This document shows positions 23,209-61,140 of a stretch of 64,000 nucleotides of DNA, piece by piece. Numbering within the stretch: position 1 is the stretch's first letter; the number at the start of each line of letters is the position of its first letter. The notes under the pieces are model-generated. The model searched no databases. It had not been told where the DNA came from and saw only the letters and a list, made by a program, of their open reading frames with translations. The position numbers and the translations under genes were made by a program. The stretch lies in NCBI GenBank assembly GCA_031213475.1, contig JARUPZ010000011.1, positions 2,046,001 to 2,110,000 of the forward strand, read 5' to 3'. Source of the DNA: Nereocystis luetkeana (lineage: Eukaryota > Sar > Phaeophyceae > Laminariales > Laminariaceae).

Positions 23209-23331
23209 TACGGGGGACCATATTAAATATCAGGTAGGACCTACGGTACTAACAAAAACCTATATATATCGTTATTTTTACTATTAATAACAATATTTGG
23301 TCCTCTTTGCTATCAATATGGTCCCTGTACT
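23209..23331. mobile_element. MITE-A copy 2 carrying two micro-insertions
   Basis: The TIRs are recognisable (TTACGGGGGACCATA). Relative to sister copies it has two extra pieces. AAATAGGACC became AAATATCAGGTAGGACC (23228-23236). ACTAACAAT became ACTATTAATAACAAT (23282-23289). Both are palindromic insertions at a TA. Confidence 0.88.
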
Positions 23332-24904
23332 ACCTTCTACTGCTGTACTTGGTGATTGGTGATGAAAAATAAAACGCACGAGATGCGTAACTTCCACGAG
23401 ACAACGACGTAGGCTAGCGGCCACCACCCAACGCTCGAAAATCCAGAAATCCAAAACTGCCCACCCACCGCTGCCGACAAGACCCATCATCGAATCCTAC
23501 ACCATATCCTGTATATTACGCAGGTACGGCGTACAATTAATATTAGTATTTGGTACCTGGTATAACACTGATACCTCCGTGTACCTACGGGGTAGTGGGC
23601 TGGGTGTGTGCGCATTTGAGTAAGAAAATTGCCATTGCCACGAGCACCGTGTTTGTATGTATGCGTGGTAAAGACTACCGGTACTGGTTTCATACTATTT
23701 GCTCTTTTCTCTGTAAGAGAGCAGAGACGAGACCTCTCTCTGCACGCACCAGCACGTACAGCAAAGCAGTACAGAGCTCTGGTCTTTGGTACTCGAGTGC
23801 TGCTTCGTACACGTACGATGTGCATCGATATACCGGTGTAGCATCGATATACAACCGTACCTGGTATATTGGAGATGGCCCATTCAACACCAAGAAGAAG
23901 CGAATACGATACCGGTACGTTTCAGGGTGCTACTGCTGCACGTACTGCTGGCTGTCCATAAGAACTGCGTAATCTGTACCAGGTATACATTTTAGCTGTT
24001 GTACTCATTACTACTTGTACTTCAGTTTCAAAGTACATAATCGTATTGTTAATAATAATAGCTGAGTCGCATATTCTATTTTTAGTTTGCCATTTATTAC
24101 CAGGTATATATTTTTTCGGGCCCCTGACACCTGATGGAATCCGCGTTTTATGATCTACCCTACGATACAGCAGACAGGGCACTATTAATAATAAAAGTAC
24201 TGAAATGCTGTACTGCTGCAGCTGTACAACCTATACTGAGATAAAGGTGCATATTATTGGAGCTTGAAAGCAAGTGCCCCCGCCGTCATATTAGACCATA
24301 CCTATAAAGAGTTATAACGTCATAACCCATAGCCCCCAACCGCCTGTGGACTGTGGACAGAGGCAGAGGAACCTACTGGCACTACGAAGTGACGAAAATC
24401 CAAAAGCTGGAAAAATCGAAAATTCCAGTTCCAAGAATTTTTATTAATACATGAATACAGAGTATAAAAAAAAATAGAGGAAAGAGGTACCGCTAGGGTG
24501 GTTAGTCTCCAAGATAAAGATTCCCCCAAAAAATCCAGGTTCGGGAAGCAAGGAAGCGCTCAAACAATACTCGTAGAACCGGGAACCCTCGTTTAAAAAT
24601 AGTGTCCCCCGGTACTTTTGTACTGACCCCCCAATCTGCGCTCTACACCATCATACCATACGATACGACGATACGACAAGCGCGAGACCAAACAGGTCTG
24701 GTATCTGGTATTGGTATTCTACCTCCTGTGCTGATCCATCAAGCAAGTACTTGCACGTAAAAACATATCGGTAAATCATACCAGTATGAATGATATGATG
24801 AGTACCAGGTATTATTAATAGCTAATGAGTACATACAACTGCTATAGGAGGAGCAGAGGTAACAACACACAGACTGCAGGACACTGAACAACAGACACAC
24901 TGAC
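23332..24904. other. Intergenic
   Basis: Rich in TACCWGGTA (23552, 23857, 23977, 24100, 24804) and TACTGCTG motifs. A minus frame at 23380-23490 (MMGLVGSGGWAVLDFWIFER) is moderately protein-like but isolated. No gene called. Confidence 0.4.
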
Positions 24905-25251
24905 CTTCCTCCTCGAATCTTGAAATCGCGAACCCATGCCCTCGGCGCAGCTCCGACCATATGCCTCAACATTTTGACTCCTTCCAGAGCTGGCACGCCC
25001 GATCGCTTCAGCATGGCCACTGCCTCCGCCGCAGATGGTCGCTTCTCCAGGTCAACGCCTGCGCTGGTCGGAGTCGTGCGCTTGGCAGACCTATTGCCGC
25101 TACTCGTCGGAGAAAGCGGGGGTGTCCATTTGGAGATTGTGGGAGAGGCAGCTCCATCTGTTGGGGTCATGGACCAGAGCAAACCTCCGCAGCTCTGGGG
25201 GCGTTGCAGGGGCTGCTGGGGCTTGTCCATTTTGTCCAGCTTGTCCATCAT
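24905..25251 (-). CDS. Putative first exon of an unknown gene
   Basis: On the minus strand an ATG-ATG pair at 25251 opens a frame (MMDKLDKMDKPQQPLQRPQS) of about 115 codons with GC-ending codon choice, unlike the AT-rich surroundings. The middle is Ser/Thr/Pro-rich and probably disordered. The end is more structured (AVAMLKRSGVPALEGVKMLR, then AAPRAWVRDFKIRGG). A splice donor, AAG/GTCAGT, lies at the 24905/24904 boundary, where the protein-like character stops. The frame stays open upstream to 25542, but that part looks like 5'UTR. No domain is recognised. I could not find exon 2 among the AT-rich sequence to the left, so the gene may be broken, or its later exons may lie far off. A head-to-head partner could be the exon at 26541. 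Confidence 0.45.
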
Positions 25252-25689
25252 ATCCGTCTTGAGCGAGAGAGCCCAAGAGAGGCGGAGGGAAAGGAGAAGA
25301 CAAAGAAGGGTTTGCTTTTTGGATTGTGTTTGGGTTGCATGTTTATTGGGGTTGTATGTTCTTTCTTGCTTGCCAAGAGGCGCCACGGTTCCATTTGAAC
25401 TGCACAAAAGAAGCAAAAGGTGTTGTAGACTCGTCTCATACCTAGCTAGAGAATGCCAGAGAGGTGATAGCCAGCCCACAGCAGCAGCAGAGCAGACAGC
25501 AAGACTGAAAGCGGGAGGCTCTAATTCTTTCGTGTACACCACATATTTATATGCATATGCGAATATACGTGAAATGGTTTGATCGATCAGTGGCTTAGTG
25601 GCTAGGGTGGTCGTCGATCAGTGCGTACGCGTTCGACGTACAAAGCGACAAAGCGGAGCCGGGAGAGCGGGTTCTTCTTCGGGCACGAC
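25252..25689. other. Possible 5' flank of the minus-strand exon
   Basis: GC-balanced sequence open in several frames. It contains GCAGCAGCAGAGCAGACAGC near 25480. No separate gene supported. Confidence 0.3.
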
Positions 25690-26410
25690 CTATGACATGC
25701 AACATGAATGTCGCGATCCAAAGAGAAGGCGAAATTGCCTCAAGCTTGGCCTTTCGAGCGGGCTTGCCTCGCCCCTGAGCGCGCAAATCTACTCCGTTGG
25801 CTGGTCTTCAGAGCGGGGATCTTCGCGAACTTTGTGTTTCATGGGTCACGAGTCGCGAGAGTTTGCCGACATCAAACGAGGCCAGAGACAGCTCGGCGGT
25901 CATAGCAGGTGCTCGACAGACCTTCCTCTTTGATGACGAAAAAAGAGCGACGAAAGTATTTCCACCTCGCAACGCGAGCGGCCAGCGGTGCTCATCATAG
26001 TTACGCATCATTGGAAGCAACACAAGATACACGAAGGCATTCCCGATTCCGAGCTCTTTTGTCCTCGATATTGCCGGAATGTATCATACCTGCGTGGCGC
26101 CTGCGGAACAAGCTCCGCGCTCGGTGGCTGTCGCGGATGATGTGGGCAGGCGTGGAACTAATCGGCGGAGGAGCCACGATCTCCGCCTGACTGGCTTCAG
26201 CTCCTTCGGACCATGCTCAGGCTTCGCATTGGTAGCGCCTTGGCTGAGGACTTCCATACGCAAAGCCTGCGCTCGGGGAACGCTTCGGCTGTGGCGTGGT
26301 TGCGGGTCGCGGTTGCCTGTGCGAAGTTGGAGAAAGAGCATGCAATGTGGTGGTCTCCCACGCAAGTTATGAGATACGCCCGCGGCTGTCGTCCAATTGA
26401 ATCTTTATAG
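25690..26410 (+). pseudogene. Decayed coding segment, possibly tyrosine-recombinase-like
   Basis: Protein-like plus-strand stretches occur in different frames with stops between them: WPFERACLAPERANLLRWLV near 25746, PECIIPAWRLRNKLRARWLS near 26070, and a C-terminal piece at 26213-26410. The last piece has FHTQSLRSGNASAVAWLR followed by MWWSPTQVMRYARGC and a stop. This resembles the end of DIRS/Crypton-type tyrosine recombinases, where an (H)SxRxGxA segment is followed by a W-S....Y motif. The resemblance is by eye and short. If it is right, R (in SLRSG) and Y (in MRYAR) would be the catalytic pair. The frame breaks indicate a dead copy or unrecognised introns. Confidence 0.2.
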
Positions 26411-26540
26411 AGCATTTTTGTCCCCGTACCCCTAAAGACCTAAAACATTTTATAAAGCAATTGGTTTCTATTGGAACACCTGGTTTTGCTCTCTCTCCAA
26501 GACAGAGACTCTGCCATCTGCCGGCCACGATCGAGGGGAT

Positions 26541-27473: not shown

Positions 27474-27804
27474 GTGCGTGTGCGTACTGTTGTTTATTGC
27501 AGTGATTACGCAATCGTGAACATGGCAGATTTTTCCGCGGCAAGGATGAAAATTAAGTTGAAATGTTGATTTTAATTACTGATGTATACCGGTAGCTAGT
27601 ACCGGTAGGTCATACCTGGTATTTTGTTCGATTTGTTATTTCCTGGTACGGTATTAGGGCGCGTCTTAACGAGAAACCTTTTTCATCACAATCGAACAGG
27701 AAAATAATAATTTGATTTGATTTGAATGTAATTTCGTGACAATTTTTCCTCTGGGTCCTATCGATGAATGTCGTATACCTGGTATATAAAAAGATCACGA
27801 ATAT

Positions 27805-28269: not shown

Positions 28270-29804
28270 ACGGAGACCAAAAGAAGTCCCGAAAGACGTC
28301 TTGTCGAATTCGTTTTTTTTTGTTTTATTCGAATCAAATGTCAAAATGCCTGCTTGGTGATTCACTTCTCGACCAATCAGATGCAAATAAAATCAATACG
28401 TAAAAAGATTGGCGGAATATTATTTTAAAAAAAACTCGTTAAGATGGGCCCTTACGGAGTGCACGAGTATTATCTGTGCTGTTACTTCGTCATTTCACTC
28501 ACACTTGAACCACAGCAGTTCACAATGTAAATGTGACCACAATGCATATGCGACAAGTGAAGGATATGATATGCATTTATCGTATGCATCGTAGTTCTGA
28601 GTTGTTCTTGTTCGTGTTGTCCCTCTCTAAACCTACCCACTCGGAATACAAACTACTTTGAAATACAGGCACAGATAAGAAGATCTTGATACTTGACACG
28701 ACGCGTAATTTTGCCTGGTATTTAAGGGTGATGGTTTGGGTACTGGTTCTGGCACATACCTGGTACAAGTACAACCTTAACCTTCGATGGGTGCGTGAAG
28801 ATGTCGAGAGCGAGGTTGAGCGAGCACGATTATGTCTACCCCTGGTGCGTTTTAACCTTTTGATTCTTATTACGAGATCTACTCCTTTACCAGTGTTGCC
28901 GACTCTGAGGTATACCAAGTACGTAGCCAACCCTTGACAAAAACGGCACCGTCTCGCGCCGTGGCCATGCTAGTGCAGTCGAGGCCGGCGGGCACGATTG
29001 TGGAAAAGTCGAACCCAAGCGTGAACCTGATATTGAAAAATATCTACAAACGCTGAGAGGGCGTCAAGGGGTCAATGCAGCGATTTCCTAGGCTGTGCAA
29101 CCTGAGCTTGTTAGTAGAGTCTGTACTTGAAAAAAACAAAGCACTCGTACTTGGTACCGGACATAATTTAGCCTGTGATGTTATGTGTCGAGGTTATCCT
29201 GCCTTTCTCATTCGTATGTGCCAGGTATACCGGTATATTACTGTGTCAGGTAGTCCGTAAGCCCAGCGCCATTGTAGAACTACGGCTGTTAATTTCTGTG
29301 TATGCATCAGATAGTATGAACTGTGGCTTGGAGCTCGCGCGGCAGGATCTTTGTAACTGTCAAGTTGAGTGTGTTGGTAGATGGGGGGCGGCCAGTGTTG
29401 CGTTGTTGTGCTGCTGTCTCGTCGCCAAATATACTGCGTCGGGTGATACACTAGACTCCAATACACACATTATCGTGTGATATGTTTGGTTTGGTAGACG
29501 TCGTTCTCCGTGGCACTCTTTTTTAGGTGACGCCGCGTGAAAAAACAACCGGGTAATCAAGTAAAAAGAGGCTTTCGCCATATTTTAATAGGAAGGGGTC
29601 CCTATTTTTGTGGCGCAGTCAAAACTAGAAACTCGCATAGCACCAGATGAAGTGAGATGTGCAACAACAGTTATCACTTCGAGTATCAATATCCACACAT
29701 ACAACAGATCACGACACGATTTAGTTCATCTTGAATCTAATCAGATCCTACGTATCATCTAGAATCTACAAGAATGTAGATCCTACGTACCTGATGCTGC
29801 TGTG
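28270..29804. other. Intergenic
   Basis: AT-rich, no gene supported. TACCTGGTA near 28757. Confidence 0.4.
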
Positions 29805-29950: not shown

Positions 29951-31610
29951 GGTAAGTATGACACTGACCGTGCAGATTATTTACGTGAAGGATTTATCTG
30001 CCTCGCAAGATCTAGATAATAAAGGTGGGGGTTGGTTTCGGTCTGTGCGGCGCGTGCACTCGTACTACGAGCGAAAAAAGGATGAGGATTCGATTTGGAC
30101 TTCACACGCCAGGGAGGAGGCACAAAACGGCAAAGAACGGAGACTGCTTGCGGGCATTGATGTACCGCTGGATACAGCAGTAGGCACACTGTCTCCGACA
30201 CAGCGCTACGTAGTAACGTACATAAATCGCACCGGGTACCTGTTTTTTTGTGATCCGTCAACCTGGTGTTACCTACAAGTATACTATTCACATTATGCAG
30301 GGTTACAGGGTACAGGGTTAAAGAGGACTGAGGGGCCTATTAATGCTATGAACGGTATAAGTTTTGCAAAACTACTGACTGCAAGCCTTTTGAGGACTTC
30401 CTGGGAAGAATTGTCTAACAACTACCTGGTACCTGGTATGCTTTTAGAGCTTCGGCTACGTATGGTCACACTGCTTGTCGCAGAGCAAAGTGGGCTGCGA
30501 AAGGAACGGTTTAGACCACGACCGCAACCATGATACTATTAATACCATCAATACAACTGCTGTACCCGTACTGCCGTGAGCTCACGCAATAGAAGAGCTC
30601 TAGGCTCCACGTTTCATATTTCATAAAGCCCGCACTCACCAATTTTTGTTTACGGTCGCTGTACCCATTAGCAGTATGTACCAACGGGCCTTTCACGTTT
30701 TGATGTTTAGATGTTTACATCAGCCCGTTTTAACGTTTTAGTCCGTCTACGGGTAGAGTCCAGAGCTGTACGCAGCAGTTACAGAGCACTGGCAAGCGGT
30801 AGCACCATTCCTGTACTGGTGTTGATACATCAGTAGTAGTAGCTCTATACCAGACCACGGCTGTAATATGGTACCAGGTAACTATTAAGGTTGCCGCGCT
30901 GACCCGTCGCTGTGACGCGGGGGTATTAGTATTAATAGTAGCTTAACAAGTAAGAAGGTATTGCCTGGCATGTAATAATCTTCTGACCGTCGCTCTTACG
31001 CGGCGGTAGTGACGTAACAACTAATAACGTTGTGGGTTGGGAGTGGGAATCGTTGGAATCGTTGGAGTCTCCTGCTGGTCTCGGCAGGAGGCCTCATTGA
31101 ACGCTTTTGTCATATACCCAAGATATACCTACAATAGTGTATAGTACCGCTCTGGCCGAGAATGTAATGCCTATTTGATATTGACATCAGATTCCAAACG
31201 GGCGCCATATCCCGGCAGAAGCCAGAAGCCAGAGAGGTAGTTAATACCGCAAAAATGATCCCACACTCCGTACAGAGAGCGAGCGCCCGCTCTGAAGAAA
31301 TCTGGCCACATACGAAGAGGAGGCTTGTTTTTTCACGGTAAGTAAAAAACATTGACCCAAGAAACCGTGCTGAGATCGTGTGCCAAACTAAATATGATAC
31401 CCAATATAGATGATACCTGGTGTCCAATAGGAGCCTGTCCTTTCAATCGTACCAATATCAACAACGTAAGAATTGGGCCTCGACGCCAAAATGGACGTTT
31501 CTGGCTTTTTATACGAAGTATTTGCTGCAGGTGCCTTCTGTATTTCACACATCGGACAGATCAGATCCCATTGCACGTGTAATTATATAGATATATCGGG
31601 GTGCAGATCC
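29951..31610. other. Intergenic
   Basis: A plus frame stays open to 30533 but begins at GTG inside the tandem repeat and has AT-rich, non-coding-like codons. TACCWGGTA pair at 30423-30437, TATTAATA at 30536 and 30925. No gene supported. Confidence 0.4.
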
Positions 31611-32319: not shown

Positions 32320-34559
32320 TACGGTAGTATTAATATTACATCATGAGCTATGTCAGTAGATTGCTAGATAGATCGGTCGTGATGTATCCGATATATGCTC
32401 TACCCGGTATTTCTATTTGTAATAAGAAGTTTGTTCCAAAAAATGTGGGTACGAGTATCATCCGAAAACGTGTGTAAGAGAACGGCACTACTTCGGCGAG
32501 GCCTGCCGTATTCTACAGTAGAACTATCATTTTTTTTTTCAAGAGAAAACGTGGAATTCATGCTTGAAATCGTGGTCGTGGTCGATGGATTATCTTCGCC
32601 CGGCAGCACTGCATTTCCGCTGCTGCTGCTGCTGCTGCGGTATCACTGCTGTGTTCTTGCGATGTGACTGCGGTATGATGGCATGATACCTCCGCGGTGT
32701 CCGAAGCTGATGTCGCTGTTGTTCCTGTTGCCTTCACAATAACCCATTGAAACAGTGGTTTCCTTCTCCCCAGCGACTGCTTGTCTCGCAGTGGGTGGGC
32801 GCGTACCGTAAACGTCGCTAGTACTGTATGAATATATTTACCATGAATACTTTCGCTCCCGTGGGAGTACGGTCGTAGTTTCGATCATTTAGTTCTTACC
32901 TGGTATATTTTTAGCGCACCCCTCGATGTGCGACACCGTGGCACTGCTGCTGCTACTGCTTTGCAAAACTGGGGACCAAAGTACGGAAAGTGATTTGAAC
33001 CTCTTTGCTCTTGTACAATTATGTGTAAGCGCGCCCCCGTGCGATACGCACCCACCCGTCTGTGATATCGAAACAAACCAGAGCTAAAGCAATAGCATTG
33101 TAAGAAAATGTAGACGGAACATGTTACGTAACAAACGCTACACGAATTTAAGGCCTATAAAATCGATTTCCACCGCATTCTCCCTCACTAAGCCTGACTT
33201 ATCTCTTCATGCGAGTAAGTCAGGTACCCCGATGAGACGCTTGAGTATCCAAGTTTTACGTCCGACTTTTCGGTACTGAACTCAGCATGCAATGATCGGC
33301 ATTGCTCTCATCGTTCCTTCTTGGCTGTTTTCTAAGCGAGAGTTTTACAGGTTGTTGAACACGAGGTAATTCCACTTTTTTTCTTTTTTCGGGGGATGAA
33401 AGCAAAAATCGAACCACGGACCTCGCTCTTCATAATCTCACGTCCTGCCGTCGACGCCATTGTAGGGAAATGTAGGCCAAAAATGTTACGTTACAAACGC
33501 TACACGAATTCAAGGCTTATAAACTTGATTTCCATCACAGAAGGGTATGGCTGTTCGCACGGTGTGACGTCGTGAGGGGGGGGGGGGTAGCTCCTGGGTA
33601 TCCCCGGGTACCACTCCAAGAAATTTGCAGCATTACGGGTAGTACGCCGTCGGTCTACCCACTATCGAAGTGCCGTCCTTGCCATCCCCCTTACGCGATC
33701 CTTCTCTAACTCGCGTCGTTGTTCGTTGTATCGCTCTGCTGTGCGAAACTGCTGCTGTAACTACCCGTGAGGAGGAAGGAACCCTCGTGCGGAAAGTGAA
33801 AGAAATCACTTCGTTCTTGTATGTTTTGCGCACCCACCCGCGAAACACCGGGGGGTACTACTGGCAGTGCTGTGTGAAACCGGGGCGCTACTGCCGTGCG
33901 AAACTGCTGCACTGCCGTGCGGAACTATCACAGCGAGCAACGCGGTAACCTGTATCACATCATCACATCTCTCTAGGATGAAAAATATGTAGTACAGGAA
34001 TACGTACTTGTAGAGACACTGAATGCGCAGTTTGGTCGGTGAGAAGAAAGAACGGTTTCATGTGAAATCAAGGACAGGAACGGCTCCAATCGATGTGCTG
34101 TGTACTGCTGTAGTGTACCTGGTACGGCAGTATGAGTAACTTCGTTTTGATATTCCGGGCACTACCTCGTACCAGGTACGCCTTACAGTCCTGATACTGC
34201 CATACTGAGATTACAAGTATCAACATCCTGGAGTTGATTGACGATTACCGAAGGTTTCGATGGTACAGCAATGTAGCTCCCCAATTCACGCCCTCGTTTG
34301 ATGGCTTCCACCCATAGTCCACACTAAAAAAATCACCTGGTCACATATATGGTTCAATCTACTGTAATGATCAGTAGACTCATCTCCAACGATACTGCAG
34401 TCACGTTCTCCAACAGTCGTTTTTATTTTGTTTGTCGTTGATTATCACTTTTAAGTCGTACGATGGCTCATCTGGAGGACCTTCCGGAAAAGACAAGCCG
34501 TTGCCAGCCCCCCCCTCCCCCCGGTCCATGCATGCCTTGATGTTTGTCCCGCCAAGGGT
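32320..34559. other. Intergenic with a duplicated segment
   Basis: Segments 33095-33180 and 33462-33542 are direct repeats (AACAAACGCTACACGAATT, then AAGGC, TATAAA, TTGATTTCC), about 365 bp apart. Between them the minus strand has GTCCGTGGTTCGATTTTTGC, a B-box-like motif, so a further SINE-like element is possible. A (CTG)n run lies at 32620 and a Disp-C core fragment at 33975-34080. Confidence 0.45.
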
Positions 34560-35065: not shown

Positions 35066-35326
35066 CAATTGTGTAGCAGCAGCAGTACGTACGCACTTGC
35101 ATAGCCGTCCTCCTTCCAGTGTTCAACATTCTGCATCATAACATGATGATGTACCAGTACGGTATATCATACCTGGTACAATCATGCCTTATGATCTGAT
35201 ATGATGGTCGATTCGCGCACGTCTATTTCGTCTGTTTGTGTATTAACTATCGCAAGTTTGGTACCTGGCTAGCCATAACCTATACAAGGGCGGTGCTGAC
35301 AGTAGTAATTAGGTAATTATCTACTA

Positions 35327-35431
35327 TTACGGGGAACCATAGTAAATAGGACCTACGGTAAAGACAAAAACCTATACATGTGACCATTTTTACTAACAAT
35401 ATTTGGTCCTATTTACTATGGCCCCCCGTAA
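35327..35431. mobile_element. MITE-A copy 3
   Basis: 105 bp between TTACGGGGAACCATAGTAAA and CTATGGCCCCCCGTAA. The TA on its right is extended to TACCAGGTA (35432-35440). Confidence 0.9.
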
Positions 35432-36224
35432 TACCAGGTATGGGGGGCATATGTATGTAGTAAAAATCAAAACCCACGATGGACCCCAAAATAATATACC
35501 AGGTATCAGGTGTCCCCCTACAGTACGTTTAAACAACCATCTTTGGTTTTGATTATTAATACAAATGGTATGATATTCTCGCGTAATAGAAATGATTAAT
35601 ACGATCTGTTCGCGTAGTAGAAATGTGTATTCCAATTCTCGTGACATCGTAAACACTGTATCGCAGAAATGGGAAGTTCAGCATTCTACTACAGCAGTAC
35701 GCTCCTGCTACAACTGCTTCGCTTCGGCTGCGCACTTGTGTGCTCGTTTAATACCATCATACCATCATATCATCATATCCACTTACCTATCAGTGATGTA
35801 GTTGTCTACCCGTTTTGTTTCTTCAGGACATACCAGGTAGTGGCTTATTGGCGAAGAGCGTCCGATTGAAACGTAAAAACCCTACCAATAGACTGCTGAT
35901 GTACCCGTTGTTCAGTATGCAGCAGTAAGTAGTATTCATGTCGTATTACGACCAAGCTTACAAAGATAAGAGCTTTGAGGACATTTTCGTTCCCACAATA
36001 GCTGACTTTCTATTTTATTGCATTCAAAAATTGTACGAGGCAGGGAGCGCTTGTAGACGCAGCCCTGTGGGAGAATTCCACAGGTCTACTTGCCGACACT
36101 CCCAAAGAGTTATATTTACCGACACTGCTGCCCTGAACCCACGCCGACCTGATCCCGCCCGGACCTGAGCCGTAGAAACTAACGATGGGTATAACTGCGA
36201 GCGAAATGTTATCAATATTAAAAC

Positions 36225-36300: not shown

Positions 36301-37059
36301 TGCATCAATAGTTTTTCATTTTGACGCCGCCGAAAAAAAAAGGACCCCTTTTCAGAATGCCTAAAGCCTGAATGAAGCCTCCGCCGGATCGGTCGCCACT
36401 AAATGTGACAAATGGTTTCCCAAAAACAAAACGGAGACACGCGTTTTTAAGGGTGGCGTTTTTCCAGCTGCTGCCTCAGCTATCACTGACGCTCTCGCCG
36501 CCGCTGTCGCCGCCGCCTTCTCGCGGCAGCTGCCGCCGCTGTAGGTGCTGCTGCTGCTGCTACCGCTGCTGTTACGGCTTTCTTTTTTCTTTCTTCTCAG
36601 CTCTTCTCAGATGTTTTTTCCCTGTTTTTCGCGTTCTTCCAAGCAGTAATACCACGCACTCTCTAGTGACCCCAGACAGACCACTACGAATATAGTTTTT
36701 TTGATGAGGCTGACAACGCAAACAGCTTGACGACTGCAGTTACAAGCATCCTGTTGCGCGAATTCGTACCGACAGCTGTACAGCTAAACCATATTTGGCC
36801 GCCGACAGGGCCGACTTGACGTCCTGATGCTACATGGGCGACGCATACCCTTTTTTTTAGGGTCATGACGCATAGCCCCGATCCCACGCCATTCGATTCC
36901 TCCAGAATCGAGGGTTTCCACCAAATGGCCACATACATCATAATCAGGAACAACGCTGACGACAGCTATTGTTGTGACGATGGACTTGATCAAGGCGATA
37001 TATCATATACTGCTTTACATATAATATGATGCACCAACGGCGTGTACCTACGACTTGTA
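36301..37059. other. Intergenic
   Basis: A (CTG/CCG)-rich stretch at 36480-36575. No gene supported. Confidence 0.4.
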
Positions 37060-37164
37060 TTACGGGGGACCATAGTAAATAGGACCGAATTGTGTTAGTA
37101 AAAATAGCTAAAAATATAGGTTTTTGTTTGTACCGTAGGTCCTATTTAATATGGTCCCCCGTAA
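37060..37164. mobile_element. MITE-A copy 4, inverted centre
   Basis: Same TIRs; the inner segment is in the opposite orientation (GTTAGTAAAAATAGC on plus), showing insertion in reverse orientation. Confidence 0.9.
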
Positions 37165-37198
37165 TAGTATATTCCTGGTGGGATTATTTCCCCCCATT

Positions 37199-39370: not shown

Positions 39371-40172
39371 TATGAGATAATATTAATAGTACTTTCCAGG
39401 GTTAGACCGGGATTTTTGGAAGGCGGCCTGTGGTGCAGCCCCCCGCCAGCAGGACCCAGAGAACCCCCGGAGGGGGCCCGCCGGAGGCCAAAAAATAAAA
39501 AAATCTAGGTACATACTGGTATGTAATCTAATGCATAAATATACTCGAAAGGTGCGTCTTGCCCGCTCTTTCCACCCTCTGGTAATAGGCAGGTACCAGG
39601 CTTGTGGTAGCAATAAGTGCGAGCAGACAAGCACAAAGTCGTGATATGTGTGAAGATAAGAACGCATATATAATATACAAGCATGTATGATGTCTTCGGT
39701 CGACGAAAATAAAAAATAAAAAAACTGCGAAGAACAGGACTCCATTTTCTTTTTTTCGCTGCAGAGGCGAAAAATTAAGCCGCACTGGCCTGCGGCGAAA
39801 AAGTGTGCGGTCCTCAAAAATGCAAGTGCGGCACGCGGCACAATGCTTCCAGCGCATGGTTCGCTAAGCGGAGTTCTGACGAAATAAAATGCGCCGGCGC
39901 GCACCGCAACACCCCCCAATCATTCTTACCCTGGTGGAGAAAATCGCCTCGGGACTTCGTCCGTGCATTATCTTGCTTGTTACCTGGTACCTGGTATATC
40001 TTACCAGGTACAGTAGGTACTGCTGTTGTCATGTTAGTTAAGCAGTACCGTGACTTGTGGATGCCAGCCGTAGTGGATACCCATTCTAAGACCACCCCGT
40101 GACAAGCCGATACATGTCGCACTTTTCAGGGTGGGCTGATGTGATGATATCACGTCCCAGTAACTCTACCGT
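39371..40172. other. Intergenic
   Basis: A GC-rich patch at 39420-39495 (CCCCCGGAGGGGGCCCGCCG) resembles 41955-42005. TACCWGGTA cluster at 39980-40008. No gene supported. Confidence 0.4.
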
Positions 40173-51200: not shown

Positions 51201-54200
51201 GTGTGGGTTACCACCCCATCGCAAAAAGTCTGGCACGAGTACCGCCGCGTGCGCCAGCCGTAGGAGTCGCTCTTCTGATGACGCTGTCCGATGATGCAAT
51301 AACAGGCGGGCTGGGGCATCCCTCCACTGTACGGGATGGGTGCTTTGTGCATGGGCCTGATGGTGATCATGGTCTGGGGCTACGTGAGGAAGTTCGGGGT
51401 GGATCCTTCGCTGATGAAGGCGGGCAGCAAGAAAAAGGTAAGAAGGGGAAAGGCTTGCTCACGCCCCCAGCTGTACAGCATCAGCAGCAGCAGCAGCAGT
51501 GGGTGGGCAGTGGGTCGTGGCGCCGTGCGAATGGGGAAGTGCTCGCGCCCGCAGCGTGTATGGGGCAGCAGTAGGTGGGCAATAGGTCGTGGCACCGTGC
51601 GGCACGAGAAAGTGCTCGCGCCTACAGCGTAGGACAGCAGTAGGGCATGGCACCACCGTGCGAGTGGGAAAGCATTTTTCACGCCCAAAGCCTACAGCGG
51701 CAGTGGGTGGGCAGTCGGTTCTGACACCATGCCGCCTGTGCAGCTTTGGTGTACTGTATGTACCAGGTGCGTCACGGTAGTGTGAGTGGACTGGGTCGAG
51801 TCCAAACTAGAAAGCCTTTCGCGGGAAAAGTCAGCGTTTAACTTGATGCCTGGTACCAGGTATACCGTGCACATAGGTCGGGACGATCGTTGACGTGGAG
51901 GCGAAGGAACACGGCTGGGATTGAGATCGCCCGGACGAGAAGCATACGCATTGCACCAAATCTGCACTGCTGTAAATAAATAACGCACCCCATACCTTCG
52001 GACATCCTCCTCCTCAACAAACAAGAAACTTAGAGGCGTTAGAGGGACAATAATGCCGAAAGAAGGTTGCGGTTGCAGCATATCGCCCACACGAACCAAG
52101 CAGCCCAAGCTGCTGGGGTTCGAAGTGGTGTGTCCAGAGTGTACCCTCGTGTCACGCTATTATTACGGGGAACCATAGTTAATAGGACCTATGGTGTACA
52201 TAAAAACCTAAATATTTAACCATCTTCACTGACAAAATCTGGTCCTATTTACTATGGTCCCCCGTAATAAAAGGGTGGTAAGATAACACATACGCAAACG
52301 CTGGGACGGACGAACTTCCGAGGCGAGTTGCTTTGAAGTCAAGAGGACCAAACAGAACGAAGAGGGTGGCTTTGGGAAGATTTTGACGAGATATCTTCCC
52401 ATAGACGCATCGCTTGGCGTGTTGCGGCGTCGCTCTTGTGGAGAACGTCAGCTCTGAAAGTCGTCCGGGGGGATGTGTTCTCTCACCACCCTAGGATGAT
52501 ACCAGGTAGTGTCATACGGTGTGCACAGTAGAAGGAGGTGTACGATGTAAAGATGATGGGCGCGCAGCATGGTGGTACCGTAACGATCCCTCCCTCCATG
52601 GTACCGGTATCATCTGCGCCAGGAAACAACACGGACACTGTAGCGGCAACCGGCACTATTTGCTCCGCACACTGCCGCACTGGTTAGTCCCATCTGTGCC
52701 AAGTGCCAAGCAACCCAACAGGCACTACAGCGGAGCGGGCAGGCGTTACTTTTCGACCGACACCATAGAGGGACCACTACTCTAGTCGTACTGATGCACG
52801 CTCTTCCTAGAAGGTTCTGTTATTATTAGGAGATTCTAGAAGTTGGCCAAGACCGCGCTGATCGCTTTCTATGTCGCCATGTCGGTAGGCCTGGCCTAGG
52901 GGGTGAGGCTTAGAATGGGTAGTCTCGTGCCATATTACGAGAATGGACCACGTAGTATTGTCGTGGTTTTCGGTGGTGTTTGTTTTCTTCGTCAGCGACA
53001 ACCCTTGTGTCGATTTTGGAGACGAGGATTTTTAAAAAGGTGTTTTGCTGCGTTATCAGCCGCCTTTTTCAAAGCGTCAACCGCCTATTAATACCAGGTA
53101 TTCGGTAGCGTCAACGGCTTATTCGGTAGCACGAGCGCGCACCAATACAAGTATCGGGCGTTTCTCGCCCCGTGTCGTACACCTGCTTGCCTTACGCACT
53201 TATTGTAACTCGGTTACCGCAGCGGTACATACTGTACATCACCCCCCGACCAAGCAATAGCCGATGCTGTAAACGTCATGCTTTATGTTTTCACTCTCCT
53301 AAGTTCGGCACGGTTTCGGTCCTATTTTGCTCGTTTCTGTTCATCGCCTGTCCTGTCCTGCTCTGCCCTGTCTGTCCTGTCTGTCCTGTCCTATCCTGTT
53401 CTGTGCCCTTTTGCCATCTGGTGATATGTTCGTGTACGTGCGCGTTGTCTGGCGCCTAATTTGTTTTGTCCTTGATCTTGTCGGGGTGCCTCTTATTATT
53501 CTGAAAGGGAGCCGGTGTGCTCGAGGGCTTCCAGCTCTTCATGAAGTACGACTACATCAAGGGCATCTTCGCGATGTCTTGCCTGTTCATGGTGGAAGTT
53601 ACCATCCTCGACTACACCATGAAGGTGATAGCACCATTTCCCATCCGTTGGGTCTGCATTCACCACAGCAGCTCCCGCAGTACTCATTGCTAACAGGAAG
53701 AAGAATATAGCATTGGGGGGCTTGCACGATACCGTCACGCGGCAGTTGTGTTTATCTTCCTTCCTCTCTCCCTCTCTGACCAACGTGGTGGTCGCTGTTG
53801 TTGCTGTTTGCCGCTTGTTTTTGTTTACAGCCGGGAATGCTATAACAGGCAGTACGAGTACAGCAGTATTTATTGAGGGATGATACAGTCAGTAACTCAG
53901 TAGCAGGTCTCGTTAGTACTCACCGATTTGTTCGGCCCTTTGTTTCCTGTCTCTTGTCTTTTGTCTCTCGCCTTGCCCTTCCTCCCTTCTTGCGTCTTAT
54001 CTTGTCTTGCCCTGCGCTGCATCTCGGCTTACGTGTCGGATGATCCGTTGGCTTGTCTTTCGTGTTAGTGTGTCATGTCTTGCCTCTCATCCCTTCTCTC
54101 GTCTTGTCTCGCCTCTTGTGTCTTGTCTTGTCTTGTCTTGTCTTGTCCCTCGGTGTTTCCTCTCGTATCGCCTCTCGCACCGTTTTTCTCTCGTGCCTGT

Positions 54201-57200
54201 CTCTCGTCTTGGCCCGCCTATCTTTTGCTGTTGTCCCATCTCTCGTGTTGCCTCTCGCAAATCCTGTCGTGTCGTGTTGTGTTGTGTTGTCGTCAAGAGC
54301 AGAAGCTGGCGTTTGAAGAATTCGCCGCTCTTCACCCTGAAGATAATGTGGCAGCTTCGAGCGCCTTTGTTGCCTTCACAGGCCTCTTTGGACAGGTAGG
54401 CACATACACACATACATTGCATACACATGCATACACATACCAATGCAATACGTGTACCTCGTAGTTCACACAAACTCCTCAAAACAGCTTCATCCCGAGT
54501 GCTCTCCCAGGATAAAGGGTTAGGCTCTAGAGTCGAGAATGTTGAAGACCACAATGTCGAATCCAGGGAAAAAATGGGGAAGCGAGAATGTCTCAAAACA
54601 AGCAGAAAACGCACGCACTCACCTTACATTTTTTTCTACCCGTACAATCAGTTATCAACAGGATGCAGCTCCAGACAATCCCGCGGAATATTCTCCATCT
54701 CAATGTGCAACATGTCAAACGTATTAATTCTCCATCTCTACACGGACATGTCGGTGGTGGAGGGCACTGGTTTTCCGCAGTTCGATGCTGGGACTTGTTC
54801 AGCCTATGGCTGCGCTTAATGGCATACGAAGTACAAAGTAAAACACACCAGGTATTTACCTGGTACACTTTTTGTCGAAGCTAACGCGCGTGAGAGAAAT
54901 CGGGATGGAGATTTTATTGAGGAATTTGTGTGCGACTATAAATTTGAACCGTCTTTTCGATGTAGGGCTAACTCTTGAAAGCTAGTCTTGAAAGCACTAT
55001 GGTCTCAAAAACACCATTACGGTGGTCTTGAAAGCGCTGCGAGCTATACAAGTATGAACTTTTTGTCGAAGCTAACGCGCGTGAGAGAAATCGGGATGGA
55101 GATTTTATTGAGGAGTTTGCGTGCAACTATGATTTCAACCGTGTTGCCGATGTAGGGCCAACTCTTAATATTAGTAGCTATTCTTGAAAGCCATACTAAT
55201 AGTGGCATGAAAAAACATTACAGTAGTGGTGAAAACACTACGAGCTGGCTCCAGCAAGAAGCACAGCGTTTCACATTTGGGCGATGCAATGTATAGAGTA
55301 CGTGAAACTATATATATAACATATATGTGCTTGATGTTGAACATATCTACAGTATGGACAAGGGGGGCACAGGAGTGAAGATATTTTCGGCGTGCGAGTT
55401 GTATTTCGAGAGATATGGACATTATTGGGCATTCTAGCAATGCTTGACGTTCTTTGTAATTCTTGGGGAGGCGCTATTTCATACCAGCACCTGGTAGGGA
55501 ATACCTGACTATATAGTAAAACCAGTATAATTTGTATTCAAGCCATGTATCGGTCAACACGGCGAGTAATTCGACGCTAAACGTCTCGACATGATCGCAT
55601 AGACATGGGGAAGACGTCCATGTCACTTTTTTTCGTATCTGCCAGCTTACAAGGCTGTGATAAGAAACGCCTGCCAAAGTACCGTAAAAAGCACGTGTTG
55701 TTGCTCTATACACGTGACGAAACCTGGTCATGTTGATGCTTTGCCACGCCGGTTATGTCATTATCCTGTCATGTCAGTCGTGATCGTCAACATGAGGATA
55801 TTTCGACCGTTTGTGGCAATCAAAGCGTTCCTTACATTTGCGACGACCAGCCTGGTGTGTGGGTGTTTTTGGCTTTGTGTTTTTCTTTCTGCGTGTCTCA
55901 CCGACCTGTGTTTCGTCTGTGTCTGTGTTCGTGGTTTTTGCTTTTTCTTGTTTCTGATGTATCAGGTGACGAACACGATCTCCTTCGGGTTCTCCCTCCT
56001 AGGCACGTCGATGGTCATCCGCCGCCTAGGCCTCAAGACAACGCTCCTTGCCTTCCCCTGCATGTGTCTGGGCGTCGTCATCATGGTGATGACGTTCCCG
56101 AGGCTGTACGTGAGTTGACTCCTTGTCTTGAGGCACTGGCAACAGACTAAGCCGCTGTCGCAAGCAAACGTGAATAGGTTTCGACTAACGCTGCGTCGTC
56201 GTTGGCCGTTAGGGCTTGCTCTGCTTCGATTTTGTGACTGCATCGATTTTCCTTTTGCTCTTCGTTGTACTCTTCGTTTTTCGTTTCATTTTTTTCGGCT
56301 CCGATTTTATAAAATCATTCCAAGCGCGTCAGCTGTCAGTTCTCGACCTTTTTTATTTATTTATTTTTCGTTCCATGTTTCGCTTCGGCCTTGTTTCCCT
56401 CGGTAGTCTACGGCAATTTTTATCGCCGAACGTACTATTCGGCATGACCCCATCCCTCCTGTCCGACCCCAACTGTGGTACTGTCGCTTCCTGCTTTCCT
56501 GTGCTGTCAAGTCGATCGCGGCGGAAGTGGTATTACGGGGAACCATAGTAAATAGGACCTACGGTGAACACAAAAACCTACATACTTCCCTATTTTTACT
56601 AACAATACTTGGTCCCGTTTACTATGGTCCCCCGCAATAGTGTCTCGCTTTCTCTATGGAACGCGGAGGCTTTCTCTAACCCCGGGGACACTTTTTGCGT
56701 CCACTCATTTTGGTTCCAAGATTGTAAAATCCGACATGTAGCCCCCCACCCACCCCTCGCCCTCCTACCCCGACTCTGGGAACTACTGTTGACTGCCTCT
56801 CGGACGAAGGTGGTGTTTTTGGCGTTAATTTTGCTGAAGGGCTTCTCGTACAGCCTTAACAACCCCTGCAAGGAGATTCTGTACCAGCCGACCAATTCCG
56901 CTGTAAAGTTTAAGAGTAAGGTGAGACCTCAAGGCTAACTTTTATGGATGTCACAATTTTCGTATTTTTTTAATCAAGTTTAGGTAGTTGCGTTTTTTGT
57001 TTCCTTTTTTTGTTTTCTTCTTGTTTTCTTGACTTTGTTGCGTTTCTTGTTCGTTTTTTTTTCGTTGTTCCTGTTCTGGGATTGTACCCGTACAGTAGCA
57101 GTACCGACGTGAGCATGTTTTGTATCTTTATCGTCATTGGCAAGCCTAAACCTGAGGTACTACCATGTACAATATTGTTACGGCAAGACCTACTGTGAAA

Positions 57201-58586
57201 GCAAAATATCTACTGCTACAACAGTACGCCGACCAACACCCACACGCCATACACGTGCACTATTAATAACGATATCGTCGGTGTTCGTTTGGCGCAGTCC
57301 TGGATAGATATATTCGGGGCTCGGATGTCGAAAGCTGGAGGATCCTTAGTTACGAATGCCTTCAGCTCGAGCATCCCCGACCTCATTAACGTGGGAGGCT
57401 CGGTGGCAGCGGCAGGCGCTGCATCTCTGATCTGGGTGGCGTGGCTGATGGGGAAGAAGTTCGACGAGCTTATGGAGACAGGAGAAGTTATTGGTTCCGA
57501 CTCGCAGGTGAGAGAGGGAGGGGTCTTCTTCAGGGAGCACGGTGATGACGTCGATGATGATGATGATCGTTGATGATGATGCTGATGGTGATGATGATGA
57601 TGGTGCCATCATAGCATTATATTAAACGCTGATTTCCCTTGAATCTATCCTTGTGGACACAGAAACGGCTTAAAAAAGGCGTCTCGATGGGAAAAGCAAC
57701 TGTAAGTACCAGGTACGAATTAATACACACGTGCACAGCAGTACCGGTACGCAATTGGAACCGTACTATCGAGCTGTGGTAGCCCTTCCGTATCACTCGC
57801 AATCGAGTAATACCAGGAGCATACCCGTGGTAATTTACGTACACCCGCAAACAAGGTGAGAGGCTCAGGTCCACCCCGATCAATCTGTATTTTGTTTGGA
57901 CGAGATTTGATTGGTATTTTTGCACAACTCGGTGGTGTTGTAGTTTCGTTGGGCGATTTGTGATTAGCACACGTGTTTTGATTTTTTTTAATTTGAATTT
58001 GGTTGTTTTCTTCACACATGTTCGGGTGTTTTGCTTTTTATCAGGCGGGTAAAGCGCGCGGGGCATATTTACTTCCTGTACCTACGAGTATAACAGGTTG
58101 ATTTTTCGTAGTTACTGGAACGTTTTTCACTCCTCCTCTAGCTCCTACAAGAGTCCCCCCCCCCCCCCCGCCGCCCTCTTTCTACGCCCCCCGCCCGGTC
58201 ATGCGTAGATATTGGTGACCCCCCCCCCCCCCCCCCCTCTTTCAATATTTTTCGATATCCCGTCTTCTCCCTCTCTCCCTGTTTCCCTCGTCCTCTTTCT
58301 GCTGTCTTGATGCCTTCGCTTCCAATGCTCTTCCCCGCTATGACAACACCAACGGCACCACCTCACCCCACCACACCCCACCATACCCCTCTGTCATGAC
58401 TGCCAGGAGTTGCCCCCTACGTTGGAAGCACTGGCAGCCGACGAGGAGACGGCTGACGCTCAGGATGCCGCCGACACTTCCTGTGGGGTACTGGAAGAGG
58501 GACAGGCGGATGAAGCATTTTTGGGAGAAAGCAGCGCGGGTGCTGGGGTAAAGGCGGAAAGCAAGACCAACTCGGTCGATCTTTGA
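45117..58586 (+). CDS. ATP/ADP (nucleotide) transporter, TLC/NTT family, 11 exons
   Basis: Multi-pass membrane exchanger of the TLC family (TC 2.A.12), which swaps ATP for ADP or other nucleotides, typically across a plastid envelope in algae. Exons: 45117-45430, 46200-46305, 47238-47397, 48281-48450, 51306-51437, 53508-53624, 54300-54395, 55966-56109, 56810-56920, 57298-57507, 58407-58586. All introns are GT-AG; phases join without a break to give 579 residues, normal for the family. The core begins [20 protein letters not shown] with K113 in the LRSLKD motif. [11 protein letters not shown] (E223) follows, then ILDYTMKQKL, with D329 where plant NTTs have [15 protein letters not shown], then VKFKSKSWIDIFG, leads to [11 protein letters not shown]. 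The tail from about 520 is acidic and probably disordered. The start is the first in-frame ATG; a targeting exon further upstream cannot be excluded. The first 75 residues are polar, without an obvious signal peptide. Confidence 0.93.
45539..46030. repeat. Tandem duplication, about 245-250 bp, in NTT intron 1
   Basis: ATTCCGAAAGTATCGA, AAATCAAGACGTTAAATGCC and ACATTCCGGAGATTTCCC recur as ATTCCGAAGGTATCGA, AAATCAAGACGTCAAATAC and TATTCCGGAGGTTTCCC. The second unit carries half a MITE-B (45823-45867), absent from the first, so that arrived after the duplication or was lost from unit one. Confidence 0.75.
45823..45867. mobile_element. MITE-B half copy
   Basis: TTAACTCCTTCAGAACTGAA then GTCCCGTTTCGGGGATAAAC. 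Only the left arm is present. Confidence 0.65.
46265..46585 (+). repeat. Tandem duplication of exon 2 end plus intron 2 start, second copy split by MITE-A
   Basis: Copy 1, 46265-46370, contains the real exon end and its GTATGT donor. Copy 2, 46371-46439 plus 46545-46585, repeats CCAAGTGCAAGATGGCCTCT but the donor is degraded (CCGGTTCGCC). MITE-A copy 5 (46440-46544) sits in copy 2. Confidence 0.9.
46440..46544. mobile_element. MITE-A copy 5, with demonstrable TA target duplication
   Basis: Element TCACGGGGGACC to GGTCCCCCGTAA, 105 bp, flanked by TA on both sides (46438-46439, 46545-46546). The parallel repeat copy at 46319-46330 is the empty site (AACATCAGTAGC). Confidence 0.93.
46982..47080. 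mobile_element. MITE-B copy in NTT intron 2
   Basis: TTAACTCTCTTAGCACCGCA to CCTAAGAGAGTTAAG. The outer arms are an exact palindrome (CTTAACTCTCTTAG). Confidence 0.88.
47569..47666. mobile_element. MITE-B copy in NTT intron 3
   Basis: TTAACCCTCTTAGGGCCGCG, GTCCCGTTGTGGGGACAAAC facing GTTTGTCCCCAACAACGGGA. Confidence 0.88.
47669..47746. mobile_element. MITE-C copy in NTT intron 3
   Basis: CACTCTGGCCGGAAATGTAA faces CGTTATATTTAAGTCCATAGTG. It lies 3 bp from a MITE-B copy. Confidence 0.65.
48532..48622. mobile_element. MITE-B copy in NTT intron 4
   Basis: TTAACCCCTTTAAAACCGCT, GTCCCGTTTTGGGGACAAAC facing GTTTGTCCTCACAACGGGAC. Confidence 0.88.
49410..49650 (+). mobile_element. Disp-C copy in NTT intron 4
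   Basis: TTGTATCCAGTACAATGACA, TTAGTGACCACGGAGCTTGT, GCGCTGGATGAATATCGACG and ACGGTTGGGTAACGTG. A T-rich stretch near 49255 may be its left part. Confidence 0.7.
49885..50019. mobile_element. MITE-B copy with internal duplication, NTT intron 4
   Basis: TTGACCCTTTGAGGGCACTG opens it and CGGGACTGCAGTGCCG closes it. The GGGGCAAATTACT centre occurs twice, giving about 135 bp instead of about 95. Confidence 0.8.
50158..50234. mobile_element. MITE-C, best copy, NTT intron 4
   Basis: CACTCTGTCCGAAAATATAG faces CCTTACATTTCCGGACAGAG, ending TG. 77 bp. Confidence 0.85.
50385..50600 (-). mobile_element. SINE-A-related body, diverged, NTT intron 4
   Basis: Plus strand: GATCCCATTTATTAATAATA, CAGACCCGGGGTCACATATG, CTTCGCGAGAAGACTTGAGC and CGTCCTCGCGTCTTATGG. 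Matches the SINE-A reverse order. Confidence 0.6.
51450..51720. repeat. Tandem repeat of about 75 bp, 3-4 units, NTT intron 5
   Basis: Units share GGTGGGCAGTGGGTCGTGGC, CCGTGCG, GGGAAGTGCTCGCGCCC and CAGC. A (CAG)7-like run at 51480-51499 lies in the first unit. Begins right behind exon 5. Confidence 0.82.
52163..52267. mobile_element. MITE-A copy 6, NTT intron 5
   Basis: TTACGGGGAACCATAGTTAA to GGTCCCCCGTAA, TA on both sides. Confidence 0.92.
52268..52492. mobile_element. Element F copy 2, NTT intron 5
   Basis: AAGATAACACATACGC, GGGACGGACGAACTTCC, TAGACGCATCGCTTGGCGTG and GAACGTCAGCTCTGAAAGTC. Collinear with 62925-63142. It abuts MITE-A copy 6. Confidence 0.65.
53340..53405. repeat. CTGTC microsatellite, NTT intron 5
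   Basis: CCTGTCCTGTCCTGCTCTGC, CCTGTCTGTCCTGTCTGTCC. Pyrimidine-rich. Confidence 0.85.
53930..54299. repeat. TCTTG/CTCG-rich pyrimidine tract, NTT intron 6
   Basis: A long TCTCGTCTTGTCTTG-like run, pure (TCTTG)5 near 54121-54147, ending (GTGTT)n before the exon 7 acceptor. It may act as an extended polypyrimidine tract. Confidence 0.75.
54867..55168. repeat. Direct duplication, about 193 bp period, NTT intron 7
   Basis: CTTTTTGTCGAAGCTAACGC, GCGTGAGAGAAATCGGGATG and GAGATTTTATTGAGGA are identical in both. The following about 50 bp are diverged (GATGTAGGGCTAACTC, GATGTAGGGCCAACTC). Confidence 0.9.
56533..56637. mobile_element. MITE-A copy 7, NTT intron 8
   Basis: TTACGGGGAACCATAGTAAA to GGTCCCCCGCAA, TA on both sides. 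Confidence 0.92.
57546..57604. repeat. GAT microsatellite, NTT intron 10
   Basis: Interrupted (GAT)n starting just 38 bp after exon 10. Confidence 0.85.
58149..58236. repeat. Two long C tracts in NTT intron 10
   Basis: About (C)14 at 58157 and about (C)19 at 58217, in a pyrimidine-rich stretch upstream of the last exon. Confidence 0.85.
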
Positions 58587-59969: not shown

Positions 59970-60112
59970 GTACAGAATTATACCAGGTACAGTATGGGCT
60001 ACAGTGTTATACCAGGTACGGTATGGGCTACAGTATTATACCAGGTACAGTATGGGCTACAGTTTTATACCAGGTACAGTACCGGCTACAGTATTATACC
60101 AGGTATAGTATG
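59970..60112. repeat. 29-30 bp tandem repeat, 5 units, each with TACCAGGTA
   Basis: Unit ATTATACCAGGTACAGTATG plus GGCTACAGT. Five units with single-base changes. Confidence 0.92.
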
Positions 60113-60739
60113 GACCGGCCAACAACAGAAAACACCTACCGGTACGGTAAAAAAAGCCTCGGGATCTTATTGTGACAACACCCTCGAACATCCTCGAGCA
60201 TAGGTTGTTATATACCTGGTACCTGGTATAATTTAGTGTCGCCTTCGCCGCTGAGCACGATTTCTCGATCCAATTCTCTTAGCGCCCCACCAAAAAATGA
60301 GCCTCATCAGGTTTGGTGGGCGTTTGCCTATACTGTACTGCTGTCTGGGGGCTATGCTATGGGAGTCGTGCCTTTAGTGTCCGAACTACTAATGTCTAAT
60401 GGTGTCCGAACTACAGCAGTGGCAGGAGCCAAGCCCCACGACAGTCGAGCAGCATGGTGGCCGATGATGATATTTGCACTGCTGCGCACTCGCACAACAT
60501 TGCCGGTACCGGAAATACAGGACTCTATTAATTGTGGTCTCAGGTTATGGCATTATACGTCGTACCTGAGTAATAAAATAGCTACTCGTATATACCAGGA
60601 GTTACGAGGGGTCATACAGATAGTACAGCATCGTAATAATCTGGACCAAATATGGTGTGTGAAAATGCGGCGGTCCATTATGGCTTCTGATTACTACCTG
60701 GAAAGTATTACGATGTATTGCGATGCCCTATATACCGTA

Positions 60740-60900
60740 ATGCTGGCCTGCGTGCAGGCAGACGTGGCTCGCGTGTAGGCGTAGCCTGCTTTGCAGGCAT
60801 GGCCTGCGTGTGACTGCGTGCAGGCCGTTCATGTGTTTGAACCTACAGGTATTTCAGCAGGCATGTGGCCTCCGTGCAGGGATCAGGCGTGGCCTGTCGT
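60740..60900. repeat. GGCCTGCGTGCAGGC-rich palindromic patch
   Basis: CTGCGTGCAGGCAG, GTAGCCTGCTTTGCAGGCAT, GGCCTGCGTGTG, TGCGTGCAGGCCG and GCAGGCATGTGGCC. Overlapping small hairpins; no coding. Confidence 0.7.
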
Positions 60901-61000
60901 GGTCACACCTTGGAAATGAATATTTACCGAGGTTTTGTGCTTGGCGCCTAAAGTCGACCCTCCGACCCGAACCTGAACCCTAAAGCCAGTGATCGGTGCT

Positions 61001-61140
61001 AGGATGCCGTGCTTGGTAACATTCTATTGATAGGTTGATTCGGCCGGCTTGGATGCTGTGTTTGGAAATACTCTACCAGGTACCATGTAGGTTGATTCGG
61101 CCCGCTCGGGATGCTGTCGCTTGGAAATACTCTCGGTATT
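61001..61140. repeat. Tandem repeat of about 65 bp, 3 units
   Basis: GGATGCCGTGCTTGGTAACA, GGATGCTGTGTTTGGAAATA and GGATGCTGTCGCTTGGAAAT, separated by TAGGTTGATTCGGCC. Unit 2 has TACCAGGTA (61074-61082) where unit 1 has TA. Confidence 0.82.

Follow-up and report, generated by a model that had tools for sequence, protein, structure and literature searches.

TACCWGGTA, an abundant seven-base insertion at TA in the kelp Nereocystis luetkeana and the probable excision scar of a cut-and-paste DNA element

A 64,000-nucleotide stretch of the genome of the brown alga Nereocystis luetkeana (GenBank assembly GCA_031213475.1, contig JARUPZ010000011.1, positions 2,046,001 to 2,110,000 of the forward strand), here called the window, carries 63 exact copies of the palindrome TACCWGGTA, which is probably the repaired scar of an excised, TA-targeting cut-and-paste DNA element. 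The evidence comprises a 7-bp insertion at TA relative to sister repeats, a symmetric target preference, otherwise unrelated flanks, length variants that share this preference, and another scar, TATTAATA, which is consistent with an element resident in the same genome. The central base was A in 33 window copies (TACCAGGTA) and T in 30 (TACCTGGTA), and a version centred on C or G occurred once. An order-2 Markov model predicts 0.84 copies of TACCWGGTA in the window; the original prediction, made from the letters of the window, had estimated about sixty copies by eye and a low chance expectation, and both estimates were sound. Five of the ten positions it gave as examples were exact (3177, 16935, 30423, 44529 and 60213), four were displaced by 1–2 bases (true starts 10755, 23858, 38351 and 57707) and one by 18 (19705).

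The genome-wide count proposed with that prediction gave 182,395 TACCWGGTA in 465,085,209 bases (1987 contigs, in which the window is contig 11, 2046001-2110000), compared with 1,744 for the reversed, non-complemented control pattern. In 20 arbitrary 10-kb stretches, which begin at base 1,000,001 of contigs 1-20 and supplied 197.5 kb of letters, the motif was the commonest 9-mer other than simple repeats, with 77 copies (32 with A and 45 with T at the centre) and 11 further copies with C or G. The A/T ratio at the centre, also proposed as a check, was near-equal. The density in these stretches, 0.39 per kb, is that of the genome as a whole; the window is about 2.5 times denser, and 5 of its 63 copies, those in a single 29-bp tandem array (59981-60105), cannot count as independent. 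In pooled counts L005 and L006, which overlap L004, were left out, and the overlap of L007 with L008, containing no motif copy, was retained.

That the motif is an insertion was seen in MITE-A, a family of ~105 bp with the ends TA-TTACGGGGGACC...GGTCCCCCGTAA-TA, a 15-base end piece of which has 34,033 exact matches in the genome (control 0). In 4 of 21 aligned copies a CCWGG-type insertion of 7 bp was present at an internal TA, in one case exact and in three with one substitution, and one of the four additionally has TATTAA and TCAATA-like insertions. The other long insertion seen in this alignment duplicates 43 bp. Copies of a partly palindromic element are aligned there in both orientations, and small gaps are not to be over-read. 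In a self-comparison (723 distinct insertion records, some of them alternative placements of a single event, with partners counted in 50-bp bins) the filled sites stood against 9 matched partner places at L026:7056, 10 at L014:143, 6 at window 23228 and 3 at window 3806. The original comparison of filled and empty sites in the copy at 23.2 kb was thereby borne out, TATCAGG (23228) being absent from all 6 partner places, and the reading of the right TA of a further copy as TACCAGGTA (35432-35440) was confirmed by exact match, whereas a tandem-unit example at 61074 proved not to be clean, since the spacing difference is 8 and not 7 and adjacent bases differ.

A fifth MITE-A copy, in L039, has TACCTGG at a site where 25 of 46 spanning genome matches were exactly 7 bp shorter, 11 equal in length (known by length only) and 10 otherwise different, with 12 further matches non-spanning; the search scored the best 40 of 2,431 candidates. 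A sixth copy (L029:1893-2033) contains one single CCWGG scar, one tandem double CCWGG scar and one TTAA scar. Scars in scars recur, with 9 neighbouring motif pairs at exactly 7-bp spacing in 279.6 kb. The motif therefore has TA on both sides of a short core that is inserted relative to empty sites, as is expected of a Tc1/mariner-type footprint. Its positions in the window, with those of the MITE-A copies, are as follows; all rows are unstranded (.), and the footprint rows rest on exact motif matches.

2280..2288, footprint TACCTGGTA
3177..3185, footprint TACCTGGTA
3201..3209, footprint TACCAGGTA
3409..3424, overlapping footprint pair TACCAGGTACCTGGTA
3758..3873, MITE-A copy, 7-bp insertion (TACCAGATA) at 3806 (copy alignment and self-comparison)
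6642..6650, footprint TACCAGGTA
9962..9970, footprint TACCTGGTA
10755..10763, footprint TACCAGGTA
12783..12791, footprint TACCTGGTA
13570..13589, footprint pair TACCAGGTA and TACCTGGTA, 11 bp apart
13909..13917, footprint TACCTGGTA
15660..15668, footprint TACCTGGTA
16935..16943, footprint TACCAGGTA
17571..17579, footprint TACCAGGTA
18384..18392, footprint TACCAGGTA (the repeat aligned from 43.3-43.5 kb lacks 7 bp at this point and has substitutions)
18432..18440, footprint TACCTGGTA
19705..19713, footprint TACCAGGTA
20393..20401, footprint TACCTGGTA
21334..21342, footprint TACCAGGTA
21535..21543, footprint TACCAGGTA
23206..23313, MITE-A copy with insertions TATCAGG (23228), TATTAA (23282) and one TCAATA-like near the right end (copy alignment and self-comparison)
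23554..23562, footprint TACCTGGTA
23858..23866, footprint TACCTGGTA
23977..23985, footprint TACCAGGTA
24098..24106, footprint TACCAGGTA
24803..24811, footprint TACCAGGTA
27613..27621, footprint TACCTGGTA
27776..27784, footprint TACCTGGTA
28757..28765, footprint TACCTGGTA
30423..30438, overlapping footprint pair TACCTGGTACCTGGTA
30872..30880, footprint TACCAGGTA
32897..32905, footprint TACCTGGTA
34116..34124, footprint TACCTGGTA
34170..34178, footprint TACCAGGTA
35170..35178, footprint TACCTGGTA
35325..35433, MITE-A copy whose right TA lies within TACCAGGTA (copy alignment)
35432..35440, footprint TACCAGGTA at the MITE-A right TA
35497..35505, footprint TACCAGGTA
35831..35839, footprint TACCAGGTA
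37058..37166, MITE-A copy, empty where other copies are filled (copy alignment)
38236..38244, footprint TACCTGGTA
38351..38359, footprint TACCTGGTA
38691..38699, footprint TACCAGGTA
39981..39996, overlapping footprint pair TACCTGGTACCTGGTA
40002..40010, footprint TACCAGGTA
40714..40722, footprint TACCTGGTA
44437..44445, footprint TACCAGGTA
44529..44537, footprint TACCAGGTA
45509..45517, footprint TACCTGGTA
46438..46546, MITE-A copy, empty (copy alignment)
51854..51862, footprint TACCAGGTA
52161..52269, MITE-A copy, empty (copy alignment)
52500..52508, footprint TACCAGGTA
53092..53100, footprint TACCAGGTA, overlapping a TATTAATA
54857..54865, footprint TACCTGGTA
56531..56639, MITE-A copy, empty (copy alignment)
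57707..57715, footprint TACCAGGTA
59981..60105, 29-bp tandem array with five TACCAGGTA, non-independent events
60213..60228, overlapping footprint pair TACCTGGTACCTGGTA
61074..61082, footprint TACCAGGTA
61156..61164, footprint TACCTGGTA

Some of these sites are inside or next to a copy of MITE-A, or belong to the tandem array, as they would if the motif were carried by MITE-A or by a longer dispersed repeat. This explanation, which had been named as one that would overturn the original interpretation, is rejected for most sites and is overall very improbable: the flanks differ, and among the 60-bp flanks of 149 sites similarity was confined to sites that neighbour each other or are in tandem, to those within or next to MITE-A and to two short cases (E up to 1e-4); most MITE-A copies are without the motif. 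A consensus extending beyond TA, which had likewise been named as a refutation, does exist. It is a weak preference of the form W-A-N4-R-TA-Y-N4-T-W, and being symmetric and target-like it fits a transposase and does not count against one. Among 302 pooled flanks, R at -1 was found in 85% (60% in the background of TA sites), A at -6 in 54% (26%) and W at -7 in 82% (54%), with little departure elsewhere; the chi-square p was below 1e-16 at each of these three positions, in tests that count linked and tandem sites as independent. The preference was first seen in the window alone, and at 88 sites outside it the full score was reached by 15 (17.0%), compared with 1.3% of 12,054 TA. A symmetric transposase complex that selects a TA would leave such a pattern.

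Copies with one mismatch were also in excess, 148 being seen beside 151 intact copies in 279.6 kb where 61.9 were expected. The surplus of 86 would correspond to some 6% divergence per base if neutral, so that the scars are neither brand-new nor conserved. A host regulatory or structural palindrome under selection is suggested by the density and symmetry of the motif, but it is hardly credible for a sequence that is an insertion relative to sister repeats and shows the one-mismatch excess of neutral decay.

Cores between TA-CC and GG-TA were not all of one length. Those of 4, 5, 6, 7 and 8 bp occurred 25, 163, 18, 10 and 3 times (controls 9, 2, 3, 1 and 3), and cores of 9-15 bp were also present, e.g. 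24 of 12 bp compared with 6 for the control, partly because they contain whole scars. The target signature was common to TACCGGTA (50 flanks), TACCAGTA (70) and TACCAGGGTA (18), was weak or missing around TACCGGGTA (24 flanks), and was absent from TACAGTA, TACAGCAGTA and TATTAATA. The variants one base shorter or longer look like end-joining products.

The motif TATTAATA counts 93,112 copies in the genome and its control 10,689. It too is an insertion at TA, here of 6 bp, filled against 6 partner places at window 23282 and 10 at L013:4568. The bases T, A and C at -3, -2 and -1 were found in 62, 58 and 49% of cases beside TATTAATA and in 63, 75 and 58% beside 40 MITE-A ends, the background being 30, 29 and 20%. 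Thus TATTAATA behaves as the excision footprint of MITE-A itself and serves as a calibrator for TACCWGGTA. The first bases of MITE-A are TTA, and two 3-nt overhangs of this kind, annealed at TA, would produce TA-TTAA-TA. Both motifs have TA flanks, a symmetric core and the status of an insertion relative to sister copies; they differ in that the source of TATTAATA is present and abundant and its target is TAC-TA. Since a resident element accounts for this TA scar, TACCWGGTA would by analogy stem from a different element, one with ends CC(W).

The same pair of scar and element argues against the view that the seven bases are inserted directly, with a transposase-like activity or a polymerase adding a short palindrome at TA and no larger element involved. 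We know of no enzyme with this activity. Dominance of a single core length, motif pairs recurring at 7-bp steps and the lack of an intact element with matching ends (in 264 kb, and genome-wide in one size class) would all suit direct insertion, but with TATTAATA acting as the ordinary excision scar of a resident element, and with end-joining-like length variants present, we consider it improbable.

If excision is the origin, the element would choose a TA embedded in a weak palindrome (W A N4 R TA Y N4 T W) and duplicate that TA on insertion. Its excision would begin with staggered cuts inside its ends, and the protruding 3' strands would consist of its first bases, in the simplest case CCAGG (5 nt). 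The two strands would pair through CC and GG, with A opposite A (or T opposite T) in the middle; repair of this mismatch by the host to A or T would then yield TA-CCWGG-TA, and TACCGGTA, TACCAGTA and TACCAGGGTA would be imperfect joins of the same break. For an overhang of 5 nt in particular the chances seem slightly less than even. The Sleeping Beauty footprint, TAC(A/T)GTA, is alike in its duplicated TA, in a short core derived from element ends and in the A/T ambiguity of a palindromic core, and these likenesses extend to Tc1/mariner elements. The ends of the mariner Mos1 begin CCAGGTG, and so start with CCAGG at TA as proposed here; Mos1 footprints measure 3 bp, and the genome gave no match to Transposase_1, the controls of that search also being silent. 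In a variant of the excision model, which is tenable though not favoured, ends CCA or CCAG would leave a 3- or 4-nt overhang, the normal mariner geometry, closed by partial overlap and fill-in. Both routes yield CCWGG on paper, and in passages of PMC7827188 Sleeping Beauty and mariner are described as nicking three bases inside the element, with 3-nt 3' overhangs and footprints equal to them; on the other side, the one-ended three-base scar TACCATA was not enriched (44 compared with 54 for the control) and the unoverlapped TACCATGGTA was rare (2 compared with 0).

Several results weigh against an excision origin, the first group of them concerning the source element. In 264 kb, 125 half-sites (TACCWGG without a following TA) had no inner sequence in common and were rejected as element ends; inner words were shared by a few places at most, and the next bases were often CA or TG, a mutated TA, or GTA, a longer scar. 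A genome-wide search for TACCAGG and CCTGGTA with 60-90 bases between them (~78-108 bp in all) gave 85 places where its control gave 183. No match to DDE_3 was found in the genome, among 30 candidates scored and with controls responding in 3 of 14. The second group concerns the scar. C/G-centred copies exceeded expectation (12 compared with 2.4 in 264 kb), and CCAGG or CCTGG overhangs alone would not give such a centre. Several MITE-A insertions share the same two internal TAs, so that some may have been inherited through amplification of filled copies, and the pairs at 7-bp steps could be slippage. The calibrator is confounded in that TACTA also occurs within TACTACTA microsatellites, 120 times in 264 kb. 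The dominant core of 5 bp departs from the 2-4 bp given for Tc1/mariner footprints in passages of PMC7913693, and one dominating product differs from rice, where excisions are mostly imperfect, 8 of 94 putative events being perfect according to part of PMC4423477.

De novo detection of TA-flanked terminal inverted repeats below 4 kb, in the same 264 kb, returned MITE-A, a TTAA family, local tandems and single pairs, and no repeated family beginning CCWGG; the one pair beginning CCTGG resolved into two scars, near 60213 and 61.08 kb. The candidate end TACCTGGTTTATAT was dropped, as its four places (L007 and L008 being one locus) share no long inner sequence and are probably scars with a mutated TA. 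A recurrent ~99-bp match of the genome-wide search belonged, in four compared loci, to a longer repeat (746 bp at 93%, 1.65 kb at 73%). A source with at least three copies in the sample, which scales to some 5,000 genome-wide, would probably have come to light, and a rarer one would not. DDE_1, the pogo/Tc5-type transposase domain, had 28 matches above cut-off in the genome, several in open frames and five identical in score. The one locus of these that was read (L039, 3.6 kb) has DDE_1 together with HTH_Tnp_Tc5 at 20.1 bits, below the cut-off of 22.2; no TA-flanked pair of CCWGG ends was found in it, and among the best 40 of 2,431 candidates there was no second copy and no DNA match beyond its resident MITE-A. 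Such transposases could not be linked to the scar and are a candidate class, not the source. The viral_contigs database gave no match for the MITE-A pattern or for another window repeat. Of the original interpretation, the 7-bp insertion at TA, the near-equal A/T centre, the unrelated flanks and the scar-like origin are supported, and an element with CCWGG ends is unconfirmed in the 264 kb searched in full and in the one size class searched genome-wide.

An intact source likewise separates Sleeping Beauty and Tc1/mariner from the present case, in which none was found, and the target, W A N4 R TA Y N4 T W, differs from the AT repeat ATATATAT reported in a part of PMC7913693. Ectocarpus, also a brown algal host, has 17 Mariner-Tc1 families with 11,912 copies, most of them non-autonomous, as given in passages of PMC12477816; the word excision is absent from the main text of that paper, and no scar is described in those passages. 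The literature search returned no earlier description naming such a scar, which does not prove its absence, and none of the papers containing the motif letters was about transposons judging by title.

It is conceivable, if doubtful, that a TA-specific transposase with an unusual 5-nt stagger, of very low copy number or now lost, left ~180,000 near-uniform scars in one kelp genome. If so, the scars would preserve a record of past jumps that can be counted and that far exceeds any remaining element, in a genome with further classes of scar (TTAA, CGAG, CWGCWG) that differ in target preference. On the scar reading in general, ~1.3 Mb of the genome (182,395 x 7 bp) would be DNA of this kind. Excision scars are usually met singly, in donor assays or species comparisons; here they could be counted in one genome and sorted by target preference and length, as a readout of the cleavage geometry, repair outcome and transposition history of possibly vanished elements. 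A surviving source would be a brown-algal transposon whose footprint is highly uniform.

Further short insertions were observed. TACGAG insertions of 6 bp, giving TACGAGTA, occur at window 43404 and L018:587, each filled against 3 partner places, and TACGAGTA counts 42 in the sample (control 4). A 6-bp AGCAGT insertion at ACAGCAGTA (window 18358) is filled against 5 partner places, and its duplicated bases look like AG, not TA. TACAGCAGTA occurs 34 times on both strands, compared with 2 each for TACTGCAGTA and TACAGCTGTA; repair of two mismatches in a single tract would produce such an excess, which is suggestive only. A family of ~96 bp, in which several copies have the ends TTAACCC...GGGTT and which from its TTAA ends we take to be piggyBac-like, has these copies in the window:

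2914-3004, ~96-bp family copy
9981-10076, ~96-bp family copy
34829-34924, ~96-bp family copy
37200-37295, ~96-bp family copy
46982-47077, ~96-bp family copy
47569-47664, ~96-bp family copy
48531-48626, ~96-bp family copy
49940-50005, ~96-bp family copy

Ten long open reading frames of the window had no match to Pfam families. A multi-exon gene for a nucleotide transporter of the TLC ADP/ATP type occupies window 47200-57500, its exons joined by eye from translations; the product shares 78% identity with an Ectocarpus protein across 99% of the query, and 93% across 43% with a partial Laminaria digitata protein, matches that point to a kelp-like brown alga. None of the 63 window copies of TACCWGGTA lies inside its seven approximate exons (1,052 bp), where about one is expected; the count is uninformative. 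A reverse transcriptase domain was found in an open frame at L019:354-1835, and window 6764-7042 contains long inverted repeats that are near-perfect (68 nt at 100%) and have GTTCGGTCGCGCACTAC motifs.

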